From: Owenia fusiformis
Lineage: Eukaryota; Annelida; Polychaeta; Sabellida; Oweniidae
NCBI GenBank assembly: GCA_903813345.2
Contig: CAIIXF020000002.1
Location: 30,560,926-30,624,925 of the forward strand
DNA length: 64,000 nt
Direction of reading: 5' to 3'
Under the pieces are notes generated by a model. That model ran no database searches, was not told the DNA's origin, and saw only the letters and a program-made list of their open reading frames with translations. Within the stretch, counting starts at the first letter, position 1; the number at the start of each line of letters is the position of its first letter. A program made the translations under genes and the position numbers. Of the stretch, positions 5,325 through 63,366 are shown piece by piece.

Positions 5325-8300
5325 CTACTTCATGCTTGGCACACAACCAACTGTTCCTTTGCTACCTGGAAATGAAATAAAAAATGATAGAAGTTTTGAT
5401 TTTATATCCACTGATAAGTCTGGGAACATGGATCTTATAGCTAAGGTCATAATGAAATAAAATTCCACAAACTCATCAGTAATTATGTCACCACAAGAAG
5501 TATTGACATTTCGTTACTGTCTCCAACCTTTTTGTCAAAGGTGTTAGGCGGTTGGTTGCATTTTTGATGTTTACAGGGCGTTCATAAAGTTCTTGCAAAA
5601 GTACTCTAATTTTTTTGTTTCTCAATCAATTTGGCTGATATTTCCACTCAGTATACCTACACTATTCATACATTTGAATCTTGAATAATAATGAATATGT
5701 CCTTGAAGAAAAAAAGTTATGATTTCTAGAGTAACACGAATCGGGGGTAGGCGGAGCAGCATTGAAATAAAGAAAAGTTTAGATAAAAAATATGGGTTAG
5801 AGATAACTTTAACATACTTTAAAGTATCCTTGAAAATACAAAACAAGCCAATGTTGCCATGTAAACATGATGTCATATGATGACATCATAGCTAAAATTT
5901 CTTTGATTCATGACATCACTCATGGTATCGTAGTGACCTATATAGGTTGTTGACATCGGACTTTGTGAAAGGCAACGTCAATTTCATTTTGTGGAAATGG
6001 CTGCAAAATCAGCAAAATATGATGATTTGCAATTACAAATAATCAGTAGCATTGGGATGTATGTTTTACTGGGAAATTCAAAAAAACATACACTTGATGA
6101 TATTCATAAGGTGTTTTGAAAGTAGGCTATGGCCAAAAGAACCATTTGCAAAACAGACTAAGACATTTACTGATGGTAGAACAAATGGTAAGGACAATGC
6201 TAAATTAAGCCGTCGAAGAACAAAATTCAGTGAGGATCAGTGCAGATGACGTTGTTGAAAGCCATCCATACAAAGATCAATCGCAATATATTTTCCAAAT
6301 GGGTTCCCCTATCTATTTGAGGAATGGTAAGTAAGACAGCAGAGGTGTATAGACCACCATAGACACTATTTTGAACACCTATACTCTTGAGATACTGTTA
6401 TTAAAGTAAATAGGACAAGTTAAAAACATTTTTAACATTCAAACAAAACAGATCCTTTTTTGCCTGCTCCGCCTACCCCTGACTCATGTGACTATAACAA
6501 CCATAACTTTTTTCCTCGAGGACTTATTCATTATAACTTAAGATCTCAATGTATGAATAGTGTAGGTATACTGAGTGAAAATATCAGCCAGATTGACTGC
6601 GATACAAAAATTCTAGAGAACTTTTGCAAGAACTTTATGAACGCCCTGTATACCTTGATACTATATAATTTTGTTGTTTGTAATGATACACAAAAAATAT
6701 TATAAAAAAGTGTTACCAGCATAGTATTTTATGGAGTATATTTCATTAAATAAATTCAGATCCCTCATGTGTTAGGCCATTTATTAATTTAGGCCATTAG
6801 TGCACAAAGTAGCCATGGATTTACAATTTAACGTAACAAAAAAATTTCAAAATTGAAATGTGAAGACTGTGTCACAGATTGTCTTTGGCTTAAAATCTGC
6901 CTGAACTATCCAAATTTTCCTGCAAGGGAATGCAACTAAAAAGTCCAAGTGGCACATGAGAACATATCATCCTTCTCACAATACTCACTGTGCTTATCCG
7001 TATCGCAAAGCTTATCATAATCTCCATTTGCCTTGATTTTTCTGAATCCTTCATTCCATAGGGCTAAAATTATAAAATTAGGAGAAACATTGTCATTTGA
7101 TTACATGAATTAGAAGTTGTGTTTTATATTTTGCAACAAATTAATTTATTATTACAGACGTGTATATTTAACAAGGGTCAGTTGAAGACATTTTGAAAAC
7201 TACATGTACTGTAGATTGTCTTATTATATGTAGGCTTTTACGGTATATCATCTTGAAGACATTATCTACAGGGTGAGCCAATAAAGGTAACCCAAACAAA
7301 TGTTAATATCTCAGTCATCAATCATGTGTTTTAAGTTATATTTTGCACAAATGAACCTCGTTTTGAGCATGTTTTGCAAAATAATCATTAAAGAATAAAT
7401 GGATAAGACCATGAAACTTGGTAGAATGGAAAAATATGTGACCTAAACCCATGCTGAATAACTGAGTTATTAACATTTGTTTGAGTTATCCTTTTTATCT
7501 CACCCTGTATGTGCTTCATACACTGAAAGGAATACACTACGAGAATAATTTGAGTCTGTTCCATTCTGATACTCGTAGCATCTTTCTGTTTCACTTGAAA
7601 CATTATCTCAGGGCTGAGAAGATTTGAGATGTCATGGTTGATCATGATGCTATGTTCAATAATCAAGAAGTTTTCACTCTTAATTAGTTAATTAATTTAA
7701 TTACCAATGAAAGAACTGTCTTGTCTGGCCATTACTGCATTTCCTCCCAGCATACAACTAATGTCACCACCAGATTTCTTCACTGTACCGTCTTTAACAG
7801 CTGTCTCCATATTCTCCTCTCCCGTGAACACTGCATCTACCTGTGATATAGGGCGGCTATCGTATAAGTAAAACATGTATTATAGGCTCATAGCCAGGGA
7901 GGAGTTGGGGGTTGAGTGGCCAATCATTTTTTAAAGCATGCAGTTGTCACCATTCTGAGCACTTTTCAAGTGCTTTTGGCTATTTTTGGACCATTTATTT
8001 AAGTTGTCATAAGTGAACCCTCTTGGAATTTTTAAAAAGTGAACTTCCTTTTGAAAAAGCTGGCTACAGGCCTATTATCATCATATATTTGCAGTGGCGT
8101 AGCGTGGGTATTCTATGAGTGTACGCCACGAGTGAGTGAAGCGAACGAGCTTTGAGGGGGTGGGGGTTCTTTCCCCCCAGGAAACTTGAAAAAATTAGAT
8201 TGCATTTGAAGCGTTCTGGTGCGTTTTAAAATACGAAATTCCGACTACAAAAAAATAATATGGATTAATAAAATGTTAGGCATTACTTCAGAATATCAAA

Positions 8301-11300
8301 CGTGGGTCATTTCAATATCAAAAATTCACTTTTCTCTAAATTTTGAGAGTACGCTATGGCGTTTTATGCGTATATGACGCTACGCCACTGATTTGTCTTG
8401 AAACAAGAGTTACTCATTGTTAAAGTAATCTTGGTAATCATATATTTTTGTCTTGCATTCCAAAACATTTCATACTTACCTAATTTAAACTAGTGTACAT
8501 TGTATGATCATTCTGAAATTAATCTTTTTGTTAGCTGTGAATGCTACATGTTATCAGCTGATCAGAAAAAGCCAATCTATAAATATTGCTTTCCCCTTCC
8601 TATTAAATAATCAAGAATTCAACAGCTGACCACAGTTAGAACCCCCCTCCCCATAAGTTTTACAATCGGCAGTCATCATTTGGATAGCGTTATTTAATCA
8701 AAGCCCGTTTGTGTGTGAATCTTAATTTCGATCCCGAATAATACAATATCTGGGCAAATTATGATAACTATGATGGAATTCTTGAAATCACCAACCACCT
8801 CGCTCTAACAATGTCCAAAATGCGACTTGCGCGCCACATTTTTGAAAGAGAATTGTATTGTTGGTTTACCTTGCCGTTGGTTATCATTTGAATGAGTTCA
8901 GTTGGACTGCTAACATGAACAATGTTAGCACGATCTAAAGTCGACCCCGTGATGGACCCTTTTTGTCTGGCAACGCATTTCTCATCGTACGCCCATCCAT
9001 CAATGAAACCTACAGTGAAATCAATGTATGTTGCTCACACATGACACACAACACTCGCGATCACCATAAAGAGCAGACGCGCGACGGCATCGTATGGTTA
9101 CCGATGCTGTAAGGTTTGAAAATACCCGCACTGTACTCATCTATCATTGTTTTCTTTATCTTCTGTCAGTGTATTCTAAATACCGACTAAAAGTACTAAA
9201 AATGTCCAATATCATTCAAAATATCGATTTCTGCTTGGATGAAGATTTTTGATATCAAGAAAATACAAGGGATGTACGTGCAACACAACGACCAGTGGGG
9301 CAAAATACGTTCCGCACCCGGCCTCCCCAATTATTGTTTGTAACAACATAATTATTGAATTGACGGCCGACACCTGAGAAAACCATCTGTATGAGCCGCT
9401 ACTGGGTTCCAGAGTACCTTTTTAAAATAACCCAAATTGACGTGAAATTTGAAATCAACGTACCTATTTTCTTCCCAGTAATGTCACTTGGATTGAAAGT
9501 GGAATCATCATTTTTCACATAAAACTGTGCCATGGTCGGTTTGTCATAGGATTCGGAAAATGAGAAAACGTGTGTTCTTCCAATGGTTGGAGACCAGTTC
9601 ATACATGCATCGTACCATCCGTCTAGCAGACCTAAAGTGATCAAAACACGTTCGTTTCATCGACAGGTCGATCTTATTTTATGTCGGATTGTAATACCTT
9701 GATGGGACAAACACCAGGGCGTGAAAACTTGTTGGAAGCAAACTTTTCACCACAAGGCAGGGCATGGCCAATGTTCGCATACAATCATATGCCTAATGTT
9801 AATTGTTGACTTGTAAAATTGTGACATTTTTGAAAATTATTCATATTACATTCCTTCCTACTTTATTTGATTTATTTAATAAGGCGATGGTCATCTGATT
9901 ATATTTTCAAATATGAAATCACTTTACGTTGAATTAGTGTACCTGTAGATCTAAAACATTCAAACAAAATGCCATGAATAAACATTCGACATAAGTTAAG
10001 GAGATATGTCAGGAACATATTTTTCTATTAGTAATCCGATATTTAACTTTTTAGCTAATCCCTCGATAAAAGATCGAACCTTGTCCTCCCATCGAATGCT
10101 CCCCTGCTTCAGAGTTCATGCAGTTGCTATACTTGTCCCATACGGTTCTACAGTCCATGTCGGCCGCATCGCACACTGGAGTACAAAATGAATGTGTGAA
10201 TTGTGTGTCGTCATATGTGCAGAATAATTTACGTTAGATAATTGAACGTGTCGTTATTGAATATGATTCGAATTTTGCGAACTAAGAGGAAGTCAAACTA
10301 TGGCAAACCAGAACTGGCGGATTGTGTCTACCACCAGCTTCAATTTCTAGTTTGTGATCGCTACGACGTAGTTTAGTAAATTGAGTTCGGTTGGCTAGTC
10401 TTTTTTCATTAATGAGATATTCTAAAATCTTAAAAATTCAGGTCGTGTTTAAATCTAGTGTACATTTATATATTAAACTTTTTCAAACTGGACAAAACTA
10501 ATTCCAATAATCACTAATCAAATCTCCAACACTCGGATTATTAATTTTATAATACGGTAATTACATCCAGTCTGAGAAAGATGAACTGGTTCATTTATGA
10601 GAAAAATAAATTGTCTCGATCTTACCAGCTTTTATAAGGTCATAGGAAAAGCCTTGTAGGTATCCTTCGTCATCTCTGAAAAACAATATTATGAGAATTA
10701 GCTATTTATTATCTAGTAGTAACCAAAATCCAAGATAATCCAAAACTAAACTCCCCTCCATAAGCCTGGCAACTCCCTCATCGAAAAATGATTCAAACAT
10801 AAATAGGTTTGAGCACGTAATTCAATGAGGGAGTTAGCCTGTTGCCTAACTTATGGAGGGGAGTGTAGGTCTTTTAAAAGAACAATAAATTTTATTACTT
10901 TGAAAGATGGGGGCACAATTGGAGTACCTTAACTTACATATACTCGTATGCTCCATAGTCATGGCCGTTTGCAATACTCCAGATCCTTTTGCCACTTTGA
11001 GAGACCTTCGCCGCTGACCCATCACCACTTACAGCCGGCTAGCAATGTTAAATTGAGATAATAGCATATTTTAAATACAATGTTATGATACGTGTACAAT
11101 TTAGTACATGGTTGCTATTGTACTTAGTGTTTCGGTTGTTGTGGGTTAGATATTCTTGCGCTTTCTGCTTTACTAGGTATCATGTAAAAACGACCTACGT
11201 TTACAAACGAAAATAATGGCCGCTTAAGCTAGCAATCAGATAGCAAAACATAGAGTAAAACTTTCTAAATGATATTTCCAATGATAACTATAATTATTAT

Positions 11301-12246
11301 ACGTAGTCATTCTGGCCAAGGACGTATATTTGACCTAAAGATATGGATAAAGTTGTGAATACTATACTACCCGACCCCGTCATACCTGGACTGTCACGGA
11401 GGTTCCAGCGGGTCTGCCCAACGCAACAGCTGCCAATATTAACCCTATGATTGCTATTACTCCAAGTACCGCAATCAAAATAAGCAACAGTCGGGAGTTG
11501 ACTAAAATATACAATGAACATAAATATATGTAGAAATTAATGTAAACTTAATTCCTACAAAGTCCCCTTTGTGTCTTTCTATTCATTTGAAATGGATATT
11601 TTTCTTTAGTAAGTTGTTTTTCAAACCATTTGTTTTTATTCATCGGAAATAACCCTTTTCAATTCTTCCAGATACTTCAGGCCTGGAATGAGATAGGCCT
11701 ACAGACACAGGCTACAAATGTCCTTAGTTAGTTTTTAGTGCTTTTACCATACATGAGAAAGATGGAAAAATAATATGCACGATGTATGAAATATGTTTTT
11801 AATTATTTTATCACTGAATAATCATAAGCTATGTCATATCTCAGTCTAGCTTTTAAATAAATGCACTGGAGCTGAGGCAAAGGGACGAAGTCGTAAATAT
11901 GTATTAAAATATCTGTATTATGTTATATCAATTATTCGTTTTTTCATCCTTACTGTGTTAAGTTTGTGCAAATGCAGTTGAAAATTGACATTACATGGCA
12001 CTTTTGAAATCATTTTATAACCAGTATGTATTCATGGGCTCAGTACTATAGAAAACTATTCATTTTTAGGGTGAACGACGCATATCTTGTTTGAATTTTA
12101 TGTATAACAGACATTTCAATATGGTGTATAGATTGTGTTTATTCAGGCAGTTTTAAAGTTTCACTAATTTCCTACTCACCCTGTCCCCCATTATTGCTCC
12201 CTGCCAGATTCACTGTGCTTCCGGTAGCACCCTCTGCTCCATTCAT
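5325..12246 (-). CDS. Gene A1: membrane-anchored bacterial-type solute-binding protein
   Basis: Exons (minus strand): 12246-12180, 11501-11386, 11038-10938, 10675-10626, 10175-10080, 9631-9464, 9009-8870, 7840-7705, 7063-6989, 5365-5325. All boundaries are AG/GT with matching phases, giving 990 nt and 329 aa. Residues 1-25 form a short Gly/Asn-rich tail. Residues 26-51 (RLLLILIAVLG...AVALG) are a signal-anchor helix. Residues 79-315 match SBP_bac_3: DYGAYEY and GFSYDLIKAV (88-112), a cytosine-free lobe-1 motif PTIGRTHVFSF with the ligand-type Arg162, ITGKKIGFIDG at the hinge (193-203), NGKVDAVFTGEE (244-255), then ALWNEGFRKIKANGDYDKL. Extra cysteines suggest disulfides in an outside domain. 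In bacteria this fold binds polar amino acids; the ligand here is unknown. The start ATG has an in-frame TAA upstream. No channel or kinase segment is visible. Confidence 0.82.
5574..6648. mobile_element. Non-autonomous mariner-like element in A1 intron 9
   Basis: Inverted termini CAGGGCGTTCATAAAG (left) and CTTTATGAACGCCCTG (right) are flanked by TA on both sides. The A2 and A3 copies hold the empty site GATGTTTATACC (about 27190 and 56392), so the TA duplication is directly shown. The 1,075-bp interior keeps a decayed N-terminal transposase-like stretch on the plus strand around 6000-6249 (for example FTDGRTNGKDNAKLSRRR), with stops and frameshifts. No DDE/D catalytic part remains. Confidence 0.88.
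7885..8075. mobile_element. MITE of the CATAGCCAGGG family in A1 intron 7
   Basis: Ends GGCTCATAGCCAGGG and GGCTACAGGCC are imperfect inverted termini. Copies lie in the same intron of A3 (about 57309-57500) and, truncated, of A2 (about 28110-28225). No coding content. Confidence 0.5.
8092..8390. mobile_element. hAT-like MITE with CAGTGGCGTAGCG termini
   Basis: CAGTGGCGTAGCG at 8092 is mirrored by CGCTACGCCACTG ending at 8390, a terminus typical of non-autonomous hAT elements in many animals. ATTTG flanks both ends, possibly part of an 8-bp target duplication. Block A3 lacks it near 57515, so it is specific to A1. Confidence 0.75.
10750..10864. mobile_element. Small hairpin MITE in A1 intron 3
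   Basis: ACTCCCCTCCATAAG at the left is mirrored by CTTATGGAGGGGAGT at the right, with a second inner inverted pair (AACTCCCTCAT / ATGAGGGAGTT). Total length is about 115 bp. The copy in A3 is at 62562-62674, and a left-truncated one in A2 is at about 30513-30628, so it was present before duplication. Confidence 0.65.
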
Positions 12247-12299
12247 CGTGTTTGCAATCTTAAGGATATCTTAAAATCCTAATATAAAAATGAAGCTGT

Positions 12300-13036
12300 T
12301 GTAGTCAACTTTAACTGGAAATATTTAACCGTGACCCCTCGATGTTATTGATTTTGTCCTGACATACCTTTTAATAGCTGTATTAAAAATAAAGTTACAG
12401 ACGATACCATTCAAAAGTTGGCAAACTGTATGAAAGCAGTTTGTATACTTGAAACATTCAAAACAAATCTATTCAAATCGTATAGCTCGGTATTAGCAAA
12501 AACGAAAAGTTACAAAGGAATCCTGAATGTTATAGTGTTGCTACAAGCCTCTCCCTAACTGACACCCCTCCCTAAGTGAACTAAACGCTTCATGTGTGCA
12601 AGGTCATTTAGCTAGACTATGAATGTTACAATATTACGCCGAGGGTCGGGAAAATATGTAAAATGTATGTAAAAGGGACTTAAAGATAAATTCAGACCAA
12701 TTACAGTATTGCCAATGTCACATTGGCAATGTTACATTGGCAATATCCATGAAGATCGTCAACGTAACAAAAGCGAGGGACTTAATATGTGAATTGGGTC
12801 TTCGTTAATATACATAGAACCGCCTGCATATCTTAAGAAATTCGAAAAACTGATAAAGATGATCTTATCAGTAAATACCAATAATAATCTATGCTTCCAT
12901 TTTCCTCTTTTATTTTGATTCATTTAGCCTTTGATCTATGACTAAAACATTACCATTAAAAATTATGACCCATGGAATATATACGCCCCTTTGCTGGCTA
13001 CGCACCTGTATACGTTTGTATATCACGTGATAGATG
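12300..13036. other. Region upstream of A1, no gene seen
   Basis: The first part (to about 12660) is shared with the sequence upstream of A2 exon 1 (41040-41480), so it may hold a common promoter, but I see no clear core motif. A small palindrome at about 12695-12745 (repeats of CATTGGCAATGT) resembles part of the foldback at 16601-17117. The rest is AT-rich with no long frames. Confidence 0.3.
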
Positions 13037-13251
13037 TACAGGGTGTTTTATAATGACCGTTCCCCCATCCACAACCAATCCTAGATCATGTGGCCCCATA
13101 ATCTATATACCATAATAAAGGTTATTCAATTCTGGAGTTATGTGCCAAAGTTTAGCATAACTGGTGATTGGGAACTTAATTTGTAAACTTGTGTTTGATT
13201 GTCATTATACCCTCAGTTTGTGTGACTTGCGGGTACCATTCCTCAGTAATA

Positions 13252-16479: not shown

Positions 16480-17740
16480 TTAGCTGGCCACACAGTCAAT
16501 CGTACCTTCGTCACCTGTAAATAAGTTATATTGATTTTGAATTATAGATTTTGAATTCCACGTCTTAACTAGGAATGACGTCATAACTGCACTGTTGCAT
16601 TCACAATGTTCTACAACTAGTTACTTTGACGGAACGTTAATGTAACAAAATGGATGAACTTCCTGGATACGAATTTTTAGTTTGCTCGATTTAAACTATA
16701 AGTCATGTTGCGAATTGTCATTTGACACAAAGTTAGACAATATAGTCTAGCTTTTAGAAATGCTCTCGGGTTTGAATTTGATTTTTAAATAAAGCTGTAA
16801 TTCATGCATTTAGACCATCGCTTTTGTTACATTGACGTAAGTCGTCAAAGTAATATACATTGGTAATATAACGTACTTTCGTCAATGTTAAAAAGCGAGG
16901 GGCTAAATATATGAATTGCAACTTTGTTTACAAAACAAATTGCAAATCGAAGAAAATTATTAAACTAAACTATATTTTCTAGCTTTATGCCTTATTATAA
17001 TCTGCAACATGACTTATAAGTAGGTTTAAATCGAGAAAACAAAAAACTCGTATCCAGGAAGTTCATCCATTTTGTTACATTGACGTTCCGTCAAAGAACC
17101 TAGTTGTGGAACAGTGATCCAATAATGTAAGCCTATACGACCTTACTTGGACGTGACGTTGATTGTGTTTATTTTCCTATATGAATGATACTTAATTAGG
17201 CTCTTGTGTAAAATGAGCAACACTATACTTACTGTGTGCAGCTGAATCACAGAGTTTCTGAATATTCCATTAGCCTTGATCTTTCTAAATCCTTCATCCC
17301 AAAGAGCTAAAACCCCGGGGCTAAAACATATTACAAGTTGAAAGGTATACATACACAGTGTAGTTAATGCTATGCAGAAATTAACCGCATCAGTATTGAG
17401 AATGGAACCCCTCAACAACTTTTTAACACCAGTTAATTTTGCCCAACGTTTTGACTTTATCATGTATATTACTAGAATGGTAGTTTATATCATTAAAAGG
17501 GCTTTAAAAAACTATTTACTATTTGATTGGTCTGTAAAATCACTTCGTTAATTTTTAGACGACCATTTCGCTAAACCTATCCAAAATATAATATTATTGT
17601 TTACCGAGGAAAGGACTGTCTTTTCTGGCCAATACTGCATTGCCACCAAGCTTACACAAAATATCACCGCCCGATTTCTTCACCTTCTTTTCAGTAATGG
17701 CTTGTTTCATATTCTCTTCACCTGAGAAACCTGCGGCTAA
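16480..17740 (-). pseudogene. B1: 3' fragment of a second solute-binding-protein gene
   Basis: Only the last three exons remain: about 17740-17605 (like A1 exon 8, with KKSGGDILCKLGGNAV), 17306-17233 and 16514-16480 (ending DEGTIDCVAS, TAA). The middle exon is 74 nt instead of 75: a base is missing after AATGGAATATT, so the frame shifts before the expected FRKLCDSAAH. The acceptor of the first of these exons is also altered (GGTTAGCC against AGGTAGCC in B2). Upstream exons are absent beyond about 17750. It is closest to B2 rather than to the A genes. It is dead by truncation and frameshift. Confidence 0.8.
16601..17117. mobile_element. Foldback MITE in the last intron of B1
   Basis: TCACAATGTTCTACAACTAG at 16601 is mirrored by CTAGTTGTGGAACAGTGA ending at 17117. 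The inverted arms run on through the phrases CCTGGATACGA and AAGTCATGTTGC. A smaller inverted pair (GCTTTTGTTACATTGACG against CGTCAATGTTAAAAAGC) sits in the loop. B2 lacks it at about 53080, giving an empty-site control. Confidence 0.7.
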
Positions 17741-17750
17741 CCATTTGTTT

Positions 17751-20940: not shown

Positions 20941-21041
20941 ACTCAACATGGATCAAAGGCGAACGTAATACACAGAACGTGACTCGTTCGCAAATTCAAT
21001 GCATTCGGCGTTCGGCTTTTTACAGTATACTGTTCTATCAA

Positions 21042-21125: not shown

Positions 21126-21379
21126 GTAAGTTTGCTCTACCATGCACAAAACTTATTAATTGATCTGTCAAATGAAACAGTTGCAATAAATGTGCCCGTT
21201 TCTTTATCTTTATTATCAAATTATCAACTGAGCATACCGAATCTTTCAAATTTCGTGAATATATTTGGAAATGAGAAACAAAGCAAGACCCAATTCGAAA
21301 TAGAAACAAGGCTATCTCTGATAAAATGCATAACAGAAAACATGTATTGTGAAATATATTGTTTGCAAGTTTAACTCAG

Positions 21380-45085: not shown

Positions 45086-45691
45086 TGCTACTTTTTGCAG
45101 TAATCGGACGACTTAATAAAACGTATTCTTTTTTCTGAGTATGAAATATCGAACAATCCCCTTTTGAGAGGTGGTTGCAAACATGTTGTGCTGATATAAA
45201 AATAGCGCATATTAAATGTCATTGATATTAATACACATGTCATAGGCTTTGGTATTAACAGAATTTGTCTTGATTTGAAAATATCTATGATCGTGCCCAT
45301 CTACCATTAGCAAGGACCAAAAAGTAGTAGAAACAATTTATATGTTTCTAAAGCTTTGAATTGAGAATGTTTTGAATATTTCCTTTAAGTTTATTAGCTA
45401 TGTTTCCAAATTAGTTTCAACAAAATTTGCAATTTAGTGCATTTATTTTGCTTTTTAAGATAAACAGTATATGCAGGGTGTCCACAAAGTTCATACACTC
45501 CATCCGCCAAAATGTTAATAGTGTTGTATAATCCTATTTTATCGTGATATTTTCATATAAATCGTCAATCAGTTTGGATCCTACTTTTAGCTGGTCACAC
45601 AGTCAACCGTACCTTCGTCACCTGTAAATAAGATATATTAGGGAGGTTAACAAGACGATTTTTTATGACGTGAACCGCAAACGTAAACCTA

Positions 45692-46736
45692 CGAGGGTTG
45701 GCCCAGAAGTAATGCACTATATGCTGTAACTTTCTTTAATTTATCAATTCAGCCGAAATTTTGTGTATACAACAATTGAAGATTCATCTATTATATCCTG
45801 AAGTTTCAGCATCCATCATTTATATGAGGATAACAACATGAGGGTAGGGGTGGGCGGGGCAGGTACAATTTTTTCTAATTATGAAAAGATCTAAAGTGTT
45901 ATTTTATTAATATTTTCCTTTAAATGGTCAAAATGTTTGGGAAATTGTTAAATTTATTCATCATGATGTTAACCAAGTACGAATAATGCAATTTGACAAT
46001 GTGATGTCATAATACCACATTTCAATAGTCACGAATTTAAATACAGTCACAGTTAAGAAATTGCAAAAATGGCTGCAATTCTCTCGTGATAACAGAAGGC
46101 CTTGCGTTTGGTGGCCTAATTTCATACTTCACTTGGACTCACAGCCACGCAAAACAATGCTACTATGAAGAAAGTATATGAGGAGTATATACCAGATAGA
46201 ACTACAATTATGGGTGGCAGAAGAGATTTAAAAGAGACGATTTGACCCTGTATGACAACTCCAAACACAGGAGGCAAAAAAAACACAAGTCACAGTGGAA
46301 GAAATTGCCGAGAGTGTTTGACCTGACAGGCATCGAAAGTACATAACATGCAAAGGGCAATATTTTGAGAAAATGTGAAATGCAACAATGTGCAATATAC
46401 ATCCATTAGATCTCATAGTAGCTCATAGTAATTTAGTATCTTAAAATGTATTTTTGAGCATACTTCTTAAAGCTACACCAAATGGTATTTGTTGATTAAT
46501 TATTTTATATTATTAATTTGTTATTCCTTTTGACGTGACTGTATAACCTGCCCCGCCCTACCCAAGCTCACTAACTTGATTTTAGTATGACATCAATATA
46601 GTTTTATCAGTAAGCATTAACATTTTTTGGAATAATCAAAATGTCTCTTAGGAACATTTACTGAACATTTCATGGAAAAATATCAATTATTGATAAAGTT
46701 AGAGGATTTAGTGCATTTCTTCTGGGACAACCCTCG
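45692..46736 (+). mobile_element. Mariner-like relic with N-terminal transposase remnant
   Basis: CGAGGGTTGGCCCAGAAGTA at 45692 is mirrored by an end finishing GGGACAACCCTCG at 46736, with TA at both sides. The interior keeps a decayed helix-turn-helix-like part around 46150-46270 (WQKRFKRDDLTLYD in one frame, close to the mariner RWYKRF motif), then nothing of the catalytic domain. It is a deletion derivative. Confidence 0.82.
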
Positions 46737-46845
46737 TATACGTTCCTGTTTACATTCTACAACAAAAGTGCTTTAAGCTAAGCACTTTAGATACTGAGCC
46801 AACGCGAACCTCAAAATGACCTTTTCTTTTTCTTAGCGGCCTTTT

Positions 46846-48215
46846 TAGTCCATAGTATGACTTCCGAATATGAAGGATCCGTAGCACACTATAGCGCAGC
46901 AACATTTGAAGCAATATTTATGAAGGTGTATATGTCTTGATTCTTTTAAAATACCATTTGCTGAAAAAGCTTCCGGCTTTCGGGTCGAATAATGTCTTTC
47001 ATCACAAGGGGTCAAAAAACGTAAATATTTTTATTCGAACTTTTATACATTTTATAAGACACAGACTGTTATTCTAAGCATACGAACAAAAATAGATTAT
47101 CATAATTTAAAAATATACTATTTAATTTTACCGTAGATGTCGGTGTTTAATTAGTGTAATTATCCAAGTGTGTTTTTCAGATTTTGTTTGATTTTTCAAA
47201 TATGAGCCAATCCGATTCAACAAAATTATGTGGAATATTTAGGTAATTTATGATTGGGAACACATTGGTTTTCTTACCATGTAAAACATTTTATTACCAG
47301 AATGTTTCCATATAATCGCAAGGGGCATAACAACAAATTATTGTTCATGTTTTATAAAACATAATACAATAACAAATAGGTAAGATTTATATCTAATTAA
47401 ATGTTACAGAGGTATTGGAATGTTCATACATTCCAAGGGCATGTCTAATAATCAATTAGAGTCATATGCAATCGAACGCCTGAAAATTCTTGCTCGACGT
47501 TTCTTGTGGCTATCATCACGTTTTCTGATGGCTGTTTCTTCTTTGACCTTACCGCTGGATACAATCAAATTTTAGGAAGATAATGATAACGATTTTCTCA
47601 ATTATTCATGAATTCGATCAGATCTTGATGGTTGTTTTATAAGCAACTGAGCTATATCTAACTACGGGAAATAGAATTTTAGTTGTAGTCATAATTAGTC
47701 ATGGAAGAGCAATAGGCCCTCCTTTATTGATAATTTTCACTGCTGAATAAAAGTCCGTATCTCAAGACCCATTTTGTGAAAAACTAGCATGATTTAAACA
47801 TTTGTCATTCCAATTTAAAAGTGATTCATTTGTAGCATTTATCTTATTAATACCTGAGAAACAATACAAAACGTCGATACAAGTGATTACATATTTTTTG
47901 GTATTGATGAGAAAAATAACCTCAAACTTATAGCTTAGAAACCTAAATCATATATTTAAAATAATTTTGTATTATTTTCTGTTGCATTGTGTACTCAAAA
48001 TTGTGAAAAATTGGGATTTTATTTTTTGGTGATTTTTTGACCTCTGTTAATGGCAGGCATAATTCAGCCTAAAAGCCGGAAGTATATTGAACGGTTATAA
48101 TAAAAATTATTAGGGGACATATGTAGGTATTTTAATGTAAGGTCAAATATCGCTGCGCTATAGTGTGCTACCAGCTCCTTTACTTGACGTCCTAGAGATT
48201 TCATACCATGGACTA
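46846..48215. mobile_element. TIR element nested in the 7.4 kb insertion
   Basis: TAGTCCATAGTATGA at about 46846 is mirrored by TCATACCATGGACTA ending near 48215. Inner arms share GTAGCACACTATAGCGCAGC with its complement near 48155. AT-rich interior, no coding frame. Confidence 0.6.
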
Positions 48216-48369
48216 TTTGTTCATTTTTCTACTTTAAAAGTATAAAAACATTATTTGAATGACAAATTCATGAACGTGTTTAAGAAAGGAGATGTTTTAC
48301 AGTCTTGCAGTGTTTTATAGTCCCTGATATGGACCCTCTGAAAAAACGTTTCGTTGTCCGCTACTTTCC

Positions 48370-49440
48370 CACATAAAATTTTTACTTCAAATTTCCACAC
48401 ATGTTACATGGTAAGAAAACCTAGAGGTGAATAACTTTTCGGCAGCCATCTTGGATTCTGGCGGCCATCTTGGAAATTTTGGGATAAATCTTGTCATCAT
48501 GATTCCAGGAAAACTACCTAACAGATTAACTTCAAATTTTCACACATGTTACATGGTATGAAGTTCCAGAGCTGATTAACTTTTCAGTGGCCATCTTGCA
48601 TTCTGGCGGCAATTTTGGAAGGCTTATAGATAAATCTTGTAATCACGATTCCAGAAAAACCACTTCACAGTTTTACTTCGAATTTTTACACATGTTACAT
48701 GGTATGAAGTTCTAGAGCTGATTAACTTTTCGGTGGCCATGTTGCATTCTGTCAGCCATCTTGGAAGTTTTTAGATAAATCTTATCATCATGATTCCAGG
48801 AAAACCACGTAACAGTTTTACTTCAAATTTTCACATATGTTACATGGTAGGAAGTTATAGAGTTGATTAACTTTCCGATAGCCATCTTGCATTCTGGCGG
48901 CCATCTTGGAAGTTTGTAGATACATCTTGTCATCACGATTCCAGAAAAACCACTTTACAGATTTGCTTCAAATTTTCACACATATTACATGGTAAGAAGT
49001 ACTACAGCTGATTAACTTTTCAGTGGCCATCTTGCATTCTGGCGGCCATCTTGGAAGTTTTTAGATAAATCTTGAAATCACGATTCCAGGAAAACCACTC
49101 AACAGTTTTCCTTTAAATTTTTACACATGTTACATGGTAAGAAGTTATAGAGCTGATTAACTTTTAAGTAGCCATTTTGCATTCTAGCAGCCATCTTGAA
49201 CGTTTTTAGATAAATCTTGTAACTGCGATTCCAGGAAAACCACTTAACTGATTTTCTTTAAATTTTCACACATGTTACATGGTAAGAAGTTCTACAGCTG
49301 ATCAACTTATAAGTAGCCATTTTGCATTCTAGCAGCCATCTTGAACGTTTTTAGATAAATCTTGTCATTGCGATTCCAGGAAAACTACTTAGCTGATTTT
49401 CTTGAAATTTTTACACATGTTACATGGTAAGAAGTTCTAG
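48370..49440 (+). repeat. About 146-bp tandem repeats with GCCATCTTG motifs
   Basis: TTACATGGTA recurs near 48403, 48548, 48695, 48840, 48987, 49129, 49276 and 49421. Each unit also has GATTCCAGGAAAAC and one or two GCCATCTTG-type cores. Divergence between units is moderate. The reverse-complement array is at 51845-52345. Confidence 0.75.
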
Positions 49441-49612
49441 AACTGTTACAAAACAGAGAAAACAAAGCACATGGTGAACAAGATCGGCCTAAAACATAGC
49501 AGTGTGGACTTGATGTCCCAGAAAGCAAGATGGTCGAAGAGTTAATCAGTTGAAGAACATCTTACCATGTAAAGTGTAAAAATTTGAGGACAATCTGTTA
49601 AAAAATAGCTCA

Positions 49613-49761
49613 GAAGACAACAGAATCGTCGATTTAATTCCTAACTTAAGTTACATAAAGGTTTGGGTTTAAAGTTCAGATCTGAACTGTTTTTTCGAAA
49701 TACCGTTTATGTAACTTAAGTGAGGAATAAAATGTACTATTATGTTGTCTTCTGAACTATT
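49613..49761. mobile_element. Small hairpin MITE
   Basis: AATAGCTCAGAAGACAACA at 49613 is mirrored by TGTTGTCTTCTGAACTATT near 49761, with an inner inverted pair around ACTTAAGTTACATAAA. Non-coding, about 150 bp. Confidence 0.6.
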
Positions 49762-51489
49762 TGTTCGCAAATATGCACATTTTCTGATACACGTTTGTGA
49801 GAAAAATGTCGTGGGAATTCTGCCTACAAAGTTACCGAAACAAACTGTTTAGGTAACCTGCATAATCGAGTGGATCACTAGTGATATACTTTAGTAGTCT
49901 TTAATAATGTTAGGGAGGATGAGTTGTAAGGCATACTATGTCATGTTAGATCATGATCTATACTACTTTTATTACAGTTTACCAGTTACACTTTCTCCAT
50001 GCTAGGTTCTGTGATAACCTTTGTTCCTTTTCCTATGGCATCCATGCTTTATACATTTACATTCACAATGGTCGCTTCCTGGTATATCTTTTTAGGTTTT
50101 ATGACTGTTAAATTCTTTACTCTAGTTAAGACCACTTTATAAACAGGTTTATCATTACCTTTATGACTGTTAAATTATATAGTCTAGTTAACACCACTTT
50201 ATAAACAGGTTTATTATTACTGGTGTAACTAACACTACGAAAAAAATTAATTTATTTGATTTTATATAACATGAAATGATTTTTTCTTTTCGAAAAAACA
50301 TTGCTCATTAGTAATATATTTAGTTGAAAACTTAGAGTAAACAATCAGTTTAACTTCTATCACATAGTTTATTTTGGTTCAGTAGATTTTTCTATACATT
50401 ATTTTTATGTCACCACCACTAGTGATTGGGTGACATATTGTAATAGCTTCGAGCGTTTATCTTGACACTGTTCAGTAGTTAATGTGTACTGTATACTTAA
50501 CAAGGTGTGGTGACATTTTGCATCTTTCTGCATCGTTACTACTATTGAAAGCTTATGTTGATATTGTAGCAGTATTTTTTAAGTTCTTTTTGTTGGTACA
50601 ATTAGTTTCCAAACCCTATACTTATATCGATCTGACACACAGTTTTAGTGCAGGTTTAAGTGATTTTTGTTGATTAATAAACACAAAGAGCACACGTGTC
50701 TCGAACTCGCAACATTGTGGATACAGAGCCCATTCACATAGTTTGACATCCTGGTGCTCTCAACCAGCTCGTTAGTTAATATCTGACTAAGAGACAGCTT
50801 GCTTTCCCCATGAAGAAACGTTGTCTGCAGCTTTTATGAGTACTATAGTATCTACAACTATTTTTGATCTTATGAGTATTTGATATCATTTTTTTCAATT
50901 TTTCTTCAACATTATTTTAATGACTTCAGTATGAATGGAATGTCTCTTGGAGTTGTGGTCGTTGATGAGAAATTGGTCATTGAACGGTGTGGATACTGTT
51001 TATTCCCATATTAGATTATTGTTTTGGGATATTCAGGTTTGATTTTTGTTTGCATGTTTTACACTTTAGAGTTTGCTTTTCCCACTAGGTTGTTTTACAC
51101 TTTTTTCCTTTCTCATTTTTGTTTATATTTAGTAAGGATATGATACACAGGTCTCTCTTTCTGTGTGATCACCTGTCCAGAAAATAATTCAACTACATGA
51201 AGAACTTTTCGGTGACATGATGCACAGTGAAAGATTTTCCACACATTTATATTTTCTTTTAAAAGAGCTTTAATTCCGATATATACTCAGATCAAGGCCA
51301 GTTTAGCATATATTTCGCTCTCAAAAAATCGCTGTGCAATAATGGATTTCAAAGAAATGTTTGACGTTTTCAATAATCTTTTTTCTTTTTGATGAAATGT
51401 AGTTATTTATTCTAAAAATCAATCGATGTTATACACAAAATGCATTTAAGTGGTATAAAGTACAGAAGCAGAGTAAAAGTATGTATTTT

Positions 51490-51840
51490 AGAATATCACC
51501 TTGTGTTACCCCATTGTAGCGCCTCTTGCCCATGTTTCTATCAATATAAAATATGATATCATTCACCAAATATGCATTTATGTCAAATTATGTGGTTTAA
51601 AATACAGAAAAATAGATAACATTGTCCTTAGAATACCACCTTGTGTAACCCACTTTACTGCATTTTGCCCCTGTTTCTATCAATATATCGATATTTTAAA
51701 GATCTTTTGATACCATAGACGAAATATGCACTTATGTGGTATAAAGTAAAGAAACATAGTGAAAGGTTGCATTCAGAATGCCACCTTGTCTAACCCCATT
51801 TTAGTGCCTTTTTCCCCTGTTTATATCAATATAAAAGGTA
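51490..51840 (+). repeat. Tandem repeat of about 140-150 bp, second type
   Basis: ACCTTGTGTTACCCCATT, ACCTTGTGTAACCCACTT and ACCTTGTCTAACCCCATT recur near 51497, 51638 and 51781, each followed by CCTGTTTCTATCAATAT. A further partial unit is at 52375-52435. No coding. Confidence 0.6.
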
Positions 51841-51844
51841 GCAT

Positions 51845-52345
51845 GTAACCTTCCATGTAACATGTGTAAAAGTTTCAAGAAAATCAGTAAAGTGGTTTTC
51901 CTGGAATTACGATGACAAGATTTATCCAAAAAACTTCCAAGATGGCCGCCAGAATGCAAGATGGCCGCCGAAAGGTTAATTAGCTCTCGAACTCCTTACC
52001 ATGTAATATGTGTAGAAATTTGAAGTAAATCCGTTTGGTTTTGCTGAAATCGTGATTACAAGATTTATCTTAAAACTTCCAAGATGGCTGCCAGAATGCA
52101 AAATGGCCACCGAAAAAATAATGAGGTCTAGGACTTTTTACCATGTAACAATGTGTGAACATTTGAATTACGTCTGTTATGTGTTTTTTTGTAAAATCGC
52201 GATGACAATATTTATCTAAAAAAAAATTCCAAGATGGCTGCCAGAATGCAAGATGGCCGCCGCAAAGTCAATCAGCTCTAGAACTTCTTACCATGTAACA
52301 TGTGTGAAAATTTGAAGTAAATCCGTCTGATGGTTTACCTGGAAT
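51845..52345 (-). repeat. Reverse array of the 146-bp repeat
   Basis: CCATGTAACATGTG-type phrases recur near 51862, 52000, 52141 and 52291, with CCAAGATGGC cores on the plus strand. It is the reverse complement of 48370-49440 and forms the right arm of the 48317-52552 element. Confidence 0.7.
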
Positions 52346-55300
52346 CGTGATGACAAGAAAGTGAGACTACAGAATGCCACCCTGTCTAACCCCGTTTTGG
52401 TGCCTTTTGCCCCTGTTTCTATCAATAGAAGAGGTGTTTTCTTTAAGAGGGAAGTCTGTTCTTTCAAACGGTACAATCATTTTATGTGGGAAAGTACCGG
52501 ACAACGAAACCCCTCTTCTAGAGCCCTTTTGGAAATCAGATCAGGGACTATTATAATGATTTTTGAATCTTACAAGATATAACAGGACGCGATTATATTT
52601 TATTCCTTTGAAGACCTAAGGGTCAATTGATTGAAGAAATACAAATCAGTATGTATAGTTAAGATTTTAGATGAGTTGACATGTGAGCAATCGCCATGTA
52701 TGTAATCTCATCAGTTTTTACATACGAAATGGGTGCCTCGGTACTCAAGTTATATTTGATTAGATTGGACACAAATGGTCTCGAAAAATACACAGATTTA
52801 TGTCAAACATACTGATGCATTCGGCTTCATATTTATCTCGATTGAGCTTGATAAAGTTATACAAATCCTTTACGGAACCACCTACCTAGACTTTGATTTC
52901 TTACGTTGCGATGAACGTAAACCGGGAAACAAGTAGGACAATTTGACGTCACGTCCTGAGAAAAGCCTGCGAGCACTTTCCCGCGGCTTACGTTGTAAAA
53001 AGAAGTGTTGCTTAACCTCTCTATTAATTTGGAATTCCACGTCTTAACTAGGAATGACGTCATTACTTCACTGTTGCATTCAATAATGTAGGCCTACACG
53101 ACCTGACTTGGACGTGACGTTGATTGTGTTTATCTTACTATGTAAATGATACGTTCAATTGACTCAGTATGTGACAATTAGGCTCTTGTGTAAAATGAAC
53201 AACACTATACTTACTGTGTGCAGCTGAATCACATAGTTTCCGAAATATTCCATTAGCCTTGATCTTTCTAAATCCTTCATCCCAAAGAGCAAAACCATAT
53301 TACAAGTTGAAAGGTATATTATATAAGTATATATTTTTCTTAGTTAATGCTTCAGTATGCAGAAATTAACCGCATCAGTATTGAGAATAGAACCCCTCAA
53401 CTACTTTTTAACACCAGTTAATTTTGCCCCACTTTTGACTTTATCACGTGTATTACTAGAATGGTAGTTTATATCATTAAAAGGGCTTCAAAAATACTAT
53501 TTACCATTCGATTGGTCTGTAAAATCAGTTCGTTAATTTTTAGACGACCATATCGCTAAACCTATCCAAAATATAATATTATTGTTTACCGAGGAAAGGA
53601 CTGTCTTTTCTGGCCATTACTGCATTTCCACCAAGCTTACACAAAATATCACCGCCCGATTTCTTCACCTTCTTTTCAGTAATGGCTTGTTTCATATTCT
53701 CTTCACCTGAGAAACCCGCGGCTACCTTTATTAGGGTGAAGAATCATGATTTTACAAGGTATTTTAAAATTGTATTATATACAGCGAGAACTATCACACA
53801 TTTCGTTATCTAAGGTGTGACATAGCCGTCTATAATAAATGGTTGGTATTTAAGATCATGTGTTATGGTGGGTTTGTTTTCATACGTAAATTAATCTAAG
53901 CCATGGTCTTAGCAGCATAAACTGGGTAACATGAAGGCATACCTCGCCTCTGACGATCTTATCGATTAGTTCTCCAGGGCCATTTACGTGAAGAACATTA
54001 TCAGGCTGTACGTACGCCCCTATGATTTTGTCGCTTTGTCTAACTAGACATTTTTCATCAGAAGAATAGCCATCCAGAAATCCTATGAAACGGAATTTCA
54101 AAATATGAAAAGACGTTAAAATGCTACAAGATTTAAGTTTGCAGCTGATTGAGAAAATAAAACAATTAACTTACCTATTTTCTTCCCCGTAATGTTTGTC
54201 GGATCGAACATGGTATCGTCAAATTTTATGTAAAATTGAGCCGGGATGAGCTTGCGATAAGACTGTGAGAAAGAGAAAACGTGGGTTCTTCCAACGGTTG
54301 GAGACCAATTCATACACGCATCGTACCATCTGTCAAGTAGACCTGCGTAAACGTGAAAGAAAAGGATTGCATTGAAATGATCGAAGAACTAAACTAATGG
54401 TTTTTAAATAGGCCTTTCCAATAAACTACAAGCTATGTCACCATCTGATTTAATTGATCAGCTTTGTTCTCAAATTAGAGGATTACACCTGATCTGGAGA
54501 TTTTTGAATCTTATTCTGAACGTTGAACTTCTCCCTTGTTTGAAAAGTTCTTACCTTGTCCTCCCATGGAGTGCTCTCCCGGTTCTGAATCCCAACAATT
54601 GGTATATTTGTCTCATATTGTCCTACAATCCATATCATCTGCCTCACATACTGCAATTGAAAGGAGTCACGATGTGTCATTGAATGTAAATTGGCGCAGC
54701 AATTGCATCACCTAAGATCTTGTTTGGCTGCGCTCAGGGTAATCTACTATTTGATACACAAATGAACATTAGACATCCACATTAATCATGTTGAACAAGC
54801 TCAAAACCTTCTTGACTGGTACAAAAATGCGTCTTTGACCGGTTTATTTGGTTCATTGGAAATATAAACAACATTTGTGCAAGGAGTTTTTTACCCATTC
54901 TAGTTCCCTTACCTGTTTGAGGAAGGTCATAGGAAAAGCCTTTTAGATAGCCTTCACTGTCTCTGAAGATAAATATGAAAATATGTCATGATTGAATTAT
55001 GACCCTAATAAGTGGTCCATTCATCAATACAGTGCTGAATATAGGTCAACAAGATACTAGTGTGCATATAAATGTAATAATAAAAGCAGTAAACTGATTT
55101 TGAAAAATCAGATGAACAACTTTTTTCATGGGGAGATCATAATAGAGAACGCACTACTTCCTTTAACATGGAAAAGTTGAAACGTTTCTGAAAATAACAG
55201 GCGATTTTGTGAAAACAACCGGTGAGAATGGCCTGTTGCCTCCTGCTAATGAAACCCCTGCTGTATATGCTTTCCTTACAAAGAATTACTTTAAATCTTG

Positions 55301-59100: not shown

Positions 59101-62100
59101 CATAAGTTAAGGAGATATGTCAGGAACTTATTTTTCTGTTAGTAATCCGATATTTAACTTTTTAGCTAATCCCTCGATAAAAGATCGAACCTTGTCCTCC
59201 CATCGAATGCTCCCCTGCTTCAGAGTTCATGCAGTTGCTATACTTGTCCCATACGGTCCTACAGTCCATGTCGGCCGCATCGCACACTGGAGTACAAAAT
59301 GAATGTGTGAATTGTGTATCATATGTGCAGAAGAGAACGTTTAATTGGGTAATTTACGTTACATAATTGAACGTGTCGTTATTTAATATGATTCGAATTT
59401 TGTGAACTAAGAGGAAGTCAAACTAAGGCAAAACAGCACTGGCGGATTGTGTCTACCACCAGCTTCAATTTCTAGTTTGTGATCGCTAAGACGTAGTTTA
59501 GTAAATTGAGTTCGGTTGGCTAGTCTTTTTTCATGAATGAGATATTCTAAAATCTTAAAAATTCAGGTCGTGTTTAAATCTAGTGTACATTCATATTTAA
59601 AACTTTTTCAAACTGGACAAAACTAATTCCAATAATCAAAATCAAATCTCCAACACTCGGATTATTAATTTTATAATACGGTAATTACATCCAGTCTGAG
59701 AAAGATGAACTGGACCATTTATGAGAAAAATAAATTGTCTCGATCTTACCAGCTTTTATAAGGTCAAAGTTAAAGCCTTGTAGGTATCCTTCGTCATCTC
59801 TGAAAAACAAAATGATTTAAAGTAATTCAATATTATGAGAAGTAGCTATTTATTATCTAGTAGTAAAGCTACGTTCACACCAACGGCGAATGCCACGCTT
59901 TAAATCGGCGAGCAAAGCGGCACCAAAGCATGGCGCTTTAAAGGGACTTGTAAAGCGGCACCAAAGCGTAACAAAGCTTGATTAAAGCGTCGGGGTCGTA
60001 GTAGGTCGTAGAAAAGCTCGAAGTAAAGCGGGATGTTCGGCAAGAGCGCCAAAATTTTTTAAACTGTTTAAACATTTTGGGCGCTCCGTTAAGAATTGAT
60101 TAAAGCGCCGAGAGCGTATCAAAGCTTTTCAAACCTTTACAAACTGAAAGCTCAGCAAAGCTTGACCCAAAGCGTAGGAAATCTCAACAGAGCTTGGTTC
60201 AATGCGGGGACCCCAGTCTCTTCACGGTCTGTTAGCGCTTGACACGCTTGACACGCTTCGTTTAGATGTATCAAGCTTTGCTACGATTTGGCATGAAGAT
60301 CTGACACGAGGTCAGACGCTTTCATCAATATCTGACACTCTTTGTTACGCTTTCATGAAGGACTCTCAAGCTTTTTAACGAATTGAGACGCTTTAATCAA
60401 GGATTGAAACGCTTTATTAAGCTTTGTTACGCTTGACAAGCTTCCTCACTCTTTCTCAAGCTCTTACACGCCGTGCGACAAACATCATGTCTTCTTCAGA
60501 CAGGTCATGATCTGGTCCATCTGGAACTTCAGGATTTTATTGTTCTGCCATCGTCTTCTGGAGTCACAGATGCAATGGTTTTATGGATCTACTGCATCTT
60601 TATACGGCCATTTGATCAAAAGTGTCATGATAAAGGCGATCTCGAAAATGCACAACAGAGCTTGGCAATCGTATCAGAGTCTGATTAAAGCGTTATAATC
60701 GCACCAAAGCGTAATAATGCTTTCCAAAGCTTATCAAAGCGTGATTTTAAGCGTAACAAAGCCTGGTCGAAGTGGGATCATAGCGTGAGGAACCGTAACA
60801 AATCGGGAAATCAGAGCGTATCAGAGCTTATTAGAGTGTAACATTACTAAAGGTACGTTCACACCAACGGCGAATGCCACGCTTTAAATCGGCGAGCAAA
60901 GCGCCGTCATTTTTGTCATTTTTCTTCATACCAACGGCGCTTTGATGGCGCTTTAAAGCGGCTTGTAAAGCGGCACCAAAGCGTAACAAAGTTTGATTAA
61001 AGCGTCGGGGTCGTAATAGGTCGTAGAAAAGCTCAGAGTAAAACGGGATATTCGGCAAGAGCGCCAAAAAATTTTAAACTCTTAAAAAATTTTGGGCGCT
61101 CTGTTACGAATCGATTAAGCGCCGAGAGCGTATCAAAGCTTAACAAACCGTAACAAAGCTCAGAAAAACTTGATCCACAGCGTAGGAAAGCTTAACATAG
61201 CTCTAAAAGGTTCCTCACGCTTTGATCCCGCTTTGATCAGGCTTTGTTACGCTTGAAATCACGCTTTGAAAAGCTTTGATAAGCACTATTACGCTTTGAT
61301 GCGATTATGACGCTTTAAATCAGGCTCTGATACGATTGCAAAACTCTGTTGTGCATTGTTACGCTCTGTTAAGCTCTGTCACGCATTGGAAAATGTCGAG
61401 ATCTCCGATTCCATGCCGCTTTTGATCCAATGACTATATAAAGATGCAGTAGATCCATAAAACCATTGCATCTTTGACTCGAGAACACGATGGCAGAACA
61501 ACGAGATCCAGAAATTCCAGATGAACCAGAGCATGACCTATCTGAAGAAGACATGACGTTTGTCGCACGGCGTGATATAGCGTGTGAAAACTTTCAAGCG
61601 TAACAAAGCCTAGCAAAGCGTTTCAATCCTTGATTAAAGCGTCTCAATTCGTTGGAAAGCTTGAGAGTCCCTCAGGAAAGTGTAACAAAGAGTGTCAGAT
61701 ATTGATGAAAGCGTCTGACCTCGTGTCAGATCTTCATGCCAGATCGTAGCAAATCTTGAGACATCTTAACGAAGCGTGTCAAGTGGTAACAGACCGTGAA
61801 TAGACTGGGGTCCCCGCTTTGAACCAAGCTGTGTTAAGCTTTCCTACGCTTTGAGTCAAGCTTTGTTGAGCTTTGTTACGGTTTGTTAAGCTTTGATACG
61901 CTCTCGGCGCTTCAATCAATTCGTAACAGAGCGCCCAAAATTTTTAAACTGTTTAACATTTTTTGGCGCTCTTGCCGAATATCCCGCTTTACTCCGAACT
62001 TTTCTACGACCTATTACGATCCCGACGCTTTAATCAAGCTTTGTTACGCTTTGGTGCCGCTTTACAATCCGCTTTAAAGCGCCATCAAAGCGCCGTTGGT

Positions 62101-63366
62101 GCGAACGCTTAAACAGTTTAAATTTTTTAGCGCTCTTGCCGAATATCCCGCTTTACTCCCGAGCTTTTCTACGACCTATTACGACCCCGACGCTTTAATT
62201 AAGCTTTGTTACGCTTTGGTGCCGCTTTACAAGCCGCTTTAAAGCGCCATCAAAGCGCCGTTGGTGTGAACGTACCATTAGGAGATCGTGATATTTTGGA
62301 AATTAAACATAAATGACAGCGCTTTGCTCGCCGATTTAAAGTGTGGCATTCGCCGTTGGTGTGAAAGTAGCTTTAAAAATGTTTGGCGCTCTTGCCGAAT
62401 ATCCCGCTTTACTCCGAGCTTTTCTACGACCTATTACGACCCCGACGCTTTAATCAAGCTTTGTTACGCTTTGGTGCCCTTTAGAAGCCGCTTTAAAGCG
62501 CCATCAAAGCGCCGTTGGTGTGAACATAGTTTAACCAAAATCCAAGATAATCCAAAACTAAACTCCCCTCCATAAGCCTGGCAACTCCCTCATCGAAAAA
62601 TGATTCAAATATAAATAGGCTTGAGCACGTAATTCAATGAGGGAGTTAGGGTTGCCAAACTTATGGAGGGGAGTGTAATGTCTTTTAAAAGAACAATAAA
62701 TGTTATTACTTTGAACATTTAGTATTGTTCTCCTGATCTAAAGCAAATTGCTTGAATAGTTGAAAGATGGGGGCACAATTGGAGTACCTTAACTTACATA
62801 TACTCGAATGCTCCATAGTCATGGCCGATTTCAATACTCCAGATCCTTTTGCCACTTTGAGAGACCTTCGCCGCTGACCCATCACCACTTCCAGCCGGCT
62901 AGCAATGTTAAATTGAGATAATAGCATATTTTAAATACTATGTTATGATACGTGTACAATTTAGTACATGGTTGCTATTGTACTTAATAGTGTTTCGGTT
63001 GTTGTACGTTAGATATTCTTGCGATTTCTGCTTTACTAGGTATCATGTAAAAACGACATACGTTTACAAACGAAAATAATGGCCGCTCAAGCTAGCAATC
63101 AGATAGCAAAACATATGTTTACTCTAGTAAAGCTTTCTAAATTATATTTCCAATAATAATTATCATACGTAGTCAATCTGGCCAAGGACGTATATTTGAC
63201 CTAAGAGATGGATAAAGTTGTGAATACTATACTACCCGACCCCGTCATACCTGGACTGTCACGGAGGTTCCAGTGGGTCTGCCCAACGCAACAGCTGCCA
63301 AGATTAACCCTATGATTGCTACTACTCCAAGTACCGCAATCAAAATAAGCAACAGTCGGGAGTTGA
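56168..63366 (-). CDS. Gene A3: membrane-anchored bacterial-type solute-binding protein (exon 1 outside window)
   Basis: Exons: 63366-63251 (membrane helix), 62898-62798, 59799-59750, 59286-59191, 58740-58573, 58120-57984, 57269-57134, 56823-56749, 56208-56168. By spacing in A1, exon 1 would lie about 50 bp past the right edge. All junctions hold. Exon 7 is 137 nt, an in-frame loss of one Gly codon (QKSITGS against QKGSITGS). Exon 4 reads GFNFDLIKA where A1 and A2 have GFSYDLIKA. The binding motif is GWVPTIGRTHVFSFAQSY with the Arg kept. No stop is seen. Intron 3 is enlarged by a foldback insertion. Likely functional if exon 1 is present. Confidence 0.75.
59867..62531. mobile_element. Harbinger-like foldback, 2.7 kb, in A3 intron 3
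   Basis: Ends AGCTACGTTCACACC (59867) and GGTGTGAACATAGTT (62531) are inverted and flanked by TAA on both sides. A1 and A2 show the empty site TAGTAGTAACCAAAAT. A 3-bp TAA duplication fits PIF/Harbinger (TWA target). The interior is made of AAAGCG/CGCTTT-rich inverted repeats and at least one nested copy (about 60851-62277). A short remnant frame starting MAEQRDPEIPDEPEHDLSEE lies at about 61490-61600 (+), and its inverted, mutated copy at about 60475-60560 (-). No transposase domain is seen. Confidence 0.75.
62562..62674. mobile_element. Hairpin MITE, A3 copy
   Basis: Same element as 10750-10864, in the same intron. Its inner loop differs (GGGTTGCCAAACTTATGG). Confidence 0.6.

Follow-up and report, generated by a model that had tools for sequence, protein, structure and literature searches.

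A tandem gene family of predicted membrane-anchored, bacterial-type solute-binding proteins in Owenia fusiformis

In eukaryotes the type II periplasmic-binding fold is best known from within ion channels, namely the ionotropic glutamate receptors (iGluRs) and the plant GLRs, which by general knowledge use it outside the cell. In bacteria it is found in the family-3 solute-binding proteins (SBPs; PF00497; the GlnP domains, HisJ, LAO and ArtJ), where it serves to capture amino acids, and a flytrap domain tethered to the membrane occurs in sensor kinases of the BvgS kind and from receptors stimulated by SBPs. The stretch of 64,000 nucleotides analysed here (the window; Owenia fusiformis, GenBank assembly GCA_903813345.2, contig CAIIXF020000002.1, positions 30,560,926 to 30,624,925 of the forward strand) holds three tandem genes, A1, A2 and A3, whose predicted products resemble each of these systems in part. 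Like bacterial family-3 SBPs, they have, judged by sequence, a two-lobe domain, the Arg of a T-x-x-R motif, a Cys113/Cys120 pair and, in the second lobe, a G-x-[IV]-D motif. Unlike them, they are encoded by spliced, eukaryotic genes, have a long N-terminal membrane helix, show Gly where the amine-binding acid would stand, carry six additional cysteines and an insertion of 11 residues, and have no importer genes beside them among the open reading frames scanned with Pfam (48 of the 194 of at least 60 amino acids in the window; small exons could escape). Unlike in iGluRs and plant GLRs, the domain has no inserted channel; unlike the BvgS-kind kinases, the A proteins have no kinase or cytoplasmic module, with only ~26 residues on the side of the helix opposite to the binding domain.

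The A genes lie head to tail on the minus strand in the order A3, A2, A1, and two broken paralogues, B and B', are interleaved between them, giving a full array order of A3 - B - A2 - B' - A1 (Table 1). A1 and A2 are both complete genes of ten exons, each with 329 codons before the stop; A3 is represented by exons 2 to 10 (305 amino acids), and its exon 1 is expected, by extrapolation from homology, ~60-130 bases beyond the window end at 64000. An earlier note on this DNA, made from its letters alone, had placed the family between 5325 and 63366, and both limits were exact, 5325 being the last base of the A1 stop codon and 63366 the first base of A3 exon 2. The 329-residue product that it described was recovered from both complete copies; the ten-exon structure that it gave to all three genes holds for A1 and A2, with nine exons of A3 in the window and the tenth only expected; and the landmark peptides that it quoted for the domain are present, but some are limited to A1 or to two copies. 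Borders were GT-AG in 26 of the 26 introns read (nine in A1, nine in A2 and eight in A3). The exons of A1 measure 67, 116, 101, 50, 96, 168, 140, 136, 75 and 41 bases, the intron phases are mixed, and exon 7 of A3 is one codon shorter than in A1 and A2. The duplication takes in 3' flanking sequence of the A genes as well. We regard these as genuine eukaryotic genes, predicted to encode single-pass membrane proteins.

The Pfam search that the earlier note had proposed placed an SBP_bac_3 domain (PF00497) in the predicted outer part of all three products, at 49.8, 45.7 and 46.4 bits in A1, A2 and A3 against a curated cut-off of 26.4. NMT1 (PF09084), a family of the same fold, passed its cut-off of 20.5 more weakly, at 23.7, 21.1 and 23.8 bits. 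TIGR01096 aligned in A1 at positions 24-247 of 250 (E 3.6e-13), and, judged by sequence, the domain is complete with both lobes; the TIGR01096 score of 49.6 bits is far under the curated cut-off of 256, and therefore no bacterial ligand name can be transferred. The closest solved structures were GlnP substrate-binding domains (6h30, E 1.7e-13; 4kqp, E 5.1e-10), residues 70-313 aligning with the second GlnP domain. A profile of the three copies matched 33 PDB sequences up to E 10, by name periplasmic or ABC (ATP-binding cassette)-transporter binding proteins, a sensor protein, and cyclohexadienyl dehydratase with ancestral reconstructions; none of the 33 bore the name of an ionotropic glutamate receptor, and the Lig_chan and Lig_chan-Glu_bd families of Pfam gave no match up to E 1 in the A products. 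The Pfam and PDB results thus bear out a family-3 solute-binding domain over the ligand domain of an iGluR. The scanned frames likewise held no channel, kinase or importer domain, as the note had said, and no ABC permease or ATPase partner.

A single N-terminal membrane helix had also been described, and hydropathy confirms it: 19-residue windows with a mean above 1.6 start only at residues 20-40. The 26 residues on the helix's two sides hold one and two Lys+Arg and one and one Asp+Glu. Eight cysteines follow the helix in the A products (A2 has an extra one at 66) and are conserved in B, which suggests that the outer domain resides in an oxidising, extracytoplasmic compartment.

Ligand-pocket residues were compared in an alignment of A1-A3, B, GlnP and 80 bacterial homologues from the genome collection. 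These were the best 80 of 239 relatives, from at least 594 pattern matches to a query of A1 and four bacterial SBPs; they were picked by pattern and similarity, so that the residue counts hold for this set and not for SBPs at large. Arg162 of the T-x-x-R motif is present in A1, A2, A3 and B and invariant in the homologues, as are the character of the Tyr89 column (Phe or Tyr in 80/80) and that of the Thr159 column (Thr or Ser in 80/80). Position 253 is Gly in A1, A2, A3 and B; of the bacteria, 58 have Asp or Glu there, 19 Tyr, one Gln, one Gly and one a gap. At position 86, Asp or Glu stands in 76 of the 80 bacteria and Gly in A1-A3, the exon being absent from B. From the HisJ, LAO and GlnBP structures we take the T-x-x-R Arg to be the contact of the ligand carboxylate and the Asp that of the amine; on that assignment the carboxylate grip would be retained and the amine grip lost, in keeping with the loss of the amine-gripping acid at the TGEE motif pointed out by the earlier note. 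The acid at 253 is not universal, as the 19 bacterial Tyr residues show, and the two Glu residues directly after Gly253, at 254 and 255, could assume part of the amine-binding role. Two positions next to the ligand, 155 and 157, vary between the A copies.

Of the 80 homologues, 73 have Cys at both 113 and 120, a pair that matches the disulfide of HisJ and LAO, whereas Cys130, 153, 211, 275, 311 and 324 are Cys in none of them. All eight are conserved between the A and B paralogues. Columns 131-145 hold 15 residues in A1 and four in every one of the 80 bacteria, an 11-residue insertion common to A and B.

B and B' are additional members, and the family is wider than the earlier note reported. 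B lies between A3 and A2, with a 7.6-kb intron separating exon 10 from exons 4-9; no match to exons 1-3 was found by tblastn, exon 5 carries a stop codon at the position of the A Trp124, and no AG precedes exon 9. B' lies between A2 and A1. B and B' differ by ~12% (17117-17739 against 53078-53724), compared with ~3-5% among the A genes in exons and introns; therefore either the duplication of B came earlier or gene conversion has homogenised the A genes.

The interleaving of B and B' with the A genes was newly seen here, as were past purifying selection on the A/B lineage and the kept reading frames of the A copies. The ratio of nonsynonymous to synonymous substitution rates (dN/dS) was 0.15 between A1 and B over their shared exons, and 0.11-0.13 for A1, A2 and A3 against B (191 codons, the second part of exon 7 omitted); these ratios are approximate, with a proportion of synonymous differences of ~0.65, a dS near saturation, and blocks that take in as many as two intron bases where some exons end. 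Past purifying selection on the A/B lineage was strong and long-lasting. Pairs of A copies differ by 29, 21 and 23 gaps in introns and by 0, 1 and 1 in exons, the latter being the 3-base in-frame gap against A3. No frame-breaking exon gap was seen, against 8.3, 4.4 and 4.5 expected from the intron rates (Poisson P 0.0002, 0.012 and 0.011, the three pairs sharing branches and not being independent, and introns that differ greatly in length being omitted), and as far as they lie inside the window A1-A3 contain no stop, loss of a splice site or frameshift. About 1.9 stops would be expected on the tree under neutrality, and zero stops alone is weak evidence (P ~0.14). The reading frames of the A copies have been kept, and amino-acid constraint since the duplication has been weak or offset by divergence.

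The explanation that we favour, and hold somewhat better than evenly probable, is that the A products are extracellular, signal-anchored Venus flytraps for a small carboxylate and act with a separate partner. The earlier note had read them as type II surface binders or sensors, perhaps for amino acids from sea water or the gut. The N-terminal helix would be a signal anchor that leaves the domain outside the cell; the two lobes would close on a small carboxylate-bearing ligand gripped by Arg162; and up to four disulfides, one of them inherited from the bacterial fold, would stiffen the domain. Because it lacks a cytoplasmic signalling domain, the protein is proposed to capture the ligand at the cell surface, either concentrating it or handing it over to a separate transporter or receptor. 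Loss of the amine clamp makes a plain alpha-amino acid, bound in the usual manner, an improbable ligand.

Several observations weigh against this explanation. The charges flanking the helix are ambiguous as to orientation, between a type II anchor and a cleaved signal, and the helix may be a cleaved signal peptide. Differences among the A copies are not enriched in the pocket, affecting two of a set of 12 pocket positions (P 0.43). Between A copies dN/dS was 0.58, 0.80 and 0.89 (one-sided P against 1 of 0.07, 0.33 and 0.44), and exons diverged about as much as introns (4.75 vs 4.79%, 4.2 vs 3.7% and 2.9 vs 3.9%, with three, two and one introns of very unequal length omitted from the three pairs); recent constraint on substitutions in single copies is therefore weak, and individual A copies may be dispensable. 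The same two results, with the broken state of B and B', would fit A copies that are decaying duplicates of a working member elsewhere in the genome. That is rather unlikely in our judgement, given A copies that are intact within the window where 4.4-8.3 frame-breaking indels per pair would be expected under neutrality; the missing stops add little by themselves. A flytrap neofunctionalised away from small ligands, as a structural, adhesive or immune recognition protein or a co-receptor subunit, is a possibility to be taken seriously, if not a probable one: it would account for a missing amine clamp, a missing acid at 86, and an insertion and six cysteines that occur in none of the 80 bacterial homologues, but it sits less easily with the retention of the carboxylate Arg, the aromatic residue at 89 and the T-x-x-R motif in the A copies, and with the strong constraint on the A/B lineage. 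The likelihoods given to these alternatives are not all mutually exclusive with that of a carboxylate-catching surface protein, and need not sum to one.

Two further alternatives concern origin. An iGluR ligand-binding domain minus its channel would come from the same fold superfamily, and iGluR genes are generally known to be numerous in animals. With no Lig_chan match, with bacterial SBPs at the top of a PDB list free of iGluR names, and with the Cys113/Cys120 pair shared by most of the bacterial homologues, such an origin is disfavoured and seems highly improbable. A recent transfer from bacteria, or contaminating bacterial DNA in the assembly, could draw on a domain family that is widespread in prokaryotes (found in 12 of 14 control genomes), and is nonetheless very hard to credit: each complete gene has nine introns, identity to bacterial relatives is just 23-26% in the plasmid matches listed and 21-32% in the best segments of the best 80 of 239 genome relatives, and a eukaryotic ALG12-type gene and pieces of eukaryotic transposons adjoin the array. 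It was rejected on these grounds, which speak against a recent event and leave room for an old transfer. With the three A copies aligned as the query, none of 84 pattern-matched stretches in the genome collection and none of 73 in the viral contigs was a relative; two A1 stretches run against the viral contigs gave six and eight pattern stretches, again with no relative. The phage collection yielded two weak matches at 22% identity (E 1e-3 and 3e-3).

Automatic annotations reading 'arginine-binding protein-like' occur in marine invertebrate genomes. Among the literature matches listed, most subscription journals not being covered, none appeared to deal with stand-alone SBP_bac_3 membrane proteins in animals. 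Solute-binding proteins are stated to occur across all kingdoms of life (PMC6829864); in that text no word begins with 'eukaryot'.

The surroundings of the array are eukaryotic, as shown by an ALG12-type frame and by Mos1-type transposase pieces and a reverse transcriptase, which occupy part of the gaps. The earlier note had placed the family in an animal; the eukaryotic part of that statement stands on these features, and the host is probably an animal. The name ALG12 is our own reading of a mannosyltransferase match (Table 1). Animal ALG12 genes are usually spliced, and the uninterrupted frame may have arisen by retrocopying or may belong to a gene with few introns. Among 41 further open frames of at least 76 residues, searched against Pfam at E 0.01, the matches were limited to one transposase and two marginal ones with virus names (E 0.005 and 0.008); three additional open frames had no Pfam match, and searches for tRNA genes and Rfam families gave no match in the window.

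Repeats are frequent in and around the genes. Directly downstream of A1 stands an inverted repeat (3600-4370 and 4472-5242) with ~770-base arms that are 98% identical and a ~100-base spacer. Intron 1 of A2 measures 9664 bases and is packed with repeats, ~9 kb of which (31520-40530) are intermingled, with CCTAT-type simple repeats among them. Intron 3 of A3 (2998 bases) holds a ~2.7-kb insertion, which at 59930-62525 is built from GCGCTTTGATGGCGCTTTAAAGCG-like units that recur in both orientations; of the 4-kb bins of the window, the one with most of this insertion has the highest G+C (0.403). A ~145-base tandem repeat is found at 48369-49448 and 51849-52358, and nearby copies are inverted.

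Table 1. Positions of the genes, broken paralogues and selected exons in the window.
Feature	Coordinates	Strand	Remarks
Gene A1	12246-12180, 11501-11386, 11038-10938, 10675-10626, 10175-10080, 9631-9464, 9009-8870, 7840-7705, 7063-6989, 5365-5325	-	Complete, 329 amino acids; splice sites, phases, PF00497 E 3.6e-13
Gene A2	40983-40917, 31252-31137, 30793-30693, 30423-30374, 29902-29807, 29356-29189, 28745-28606, 28070-27935, 27623-27549, 26988-26948	-	Complete, 329 amino acids; PF00497 E 6.9e-12
Gene A3 (exons 2-10)	63366-63251, 62898-62798, 59799-59750, 59286-59191, 58740-58573, 58120-57984, 57269-57134, 56823-56749, 56208-56168	-	305 amino acids in window; PF00497 E 4.4e-12
A1 exon 2, predicted membrane helix (residues 27-51)	11386..11501	-	Kyte-Doolittle mean 3.1 over 25 residues; equivalent exon 31252-31137 (A2), 63366-63251 (A3)
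A1 exon 6, Arg162 in T-x-x-R motif, Cys153	9464..9631	-	Arg in 80/80 bacterial homologues
A1 exon 8, T/S-G-E-E motif, Gly253	7705..7840	-	Asp/Glu there in 58/80 bacteria
Paralogue B	Exons 4-9 at 54962-53215, exon 10 at 45621-45587 (span 45587..54962)	-	Broken
Fragment B'	Exons 8-10 only, exon 10 at 16514-16480 (span 16480..17734)	-	Exon 9 out of frame
Alg9/ALG12-type mannosyltransferase frame, 504 amino acids stop to stop	523-2037	+	PF03901 E 2.8e-53; PDB 9s6t (named mannosyltransferase) E 7.7e-150

A broader proposition is that the A family represents an undescribed class of animal surface flytrap receptors, bacterial in type (whether kept or acquired), expanded in tandem, and directed at carboxylates that lack a standard alpha-amine, such as environmental or microbial metabolites, which would be passed to a separate partner. 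We advance it only tentatively and consider it doubtful. A stand-alone, anchored binder of bacterial type in an animal, with an altered clamp and a cysteine pair in common with bacterial SBPs, would be a ready-made sensor or scavenger of small molecules, whose ligand could be found by a simple binding screen, and the A family bears on the route by which animals got this fold.

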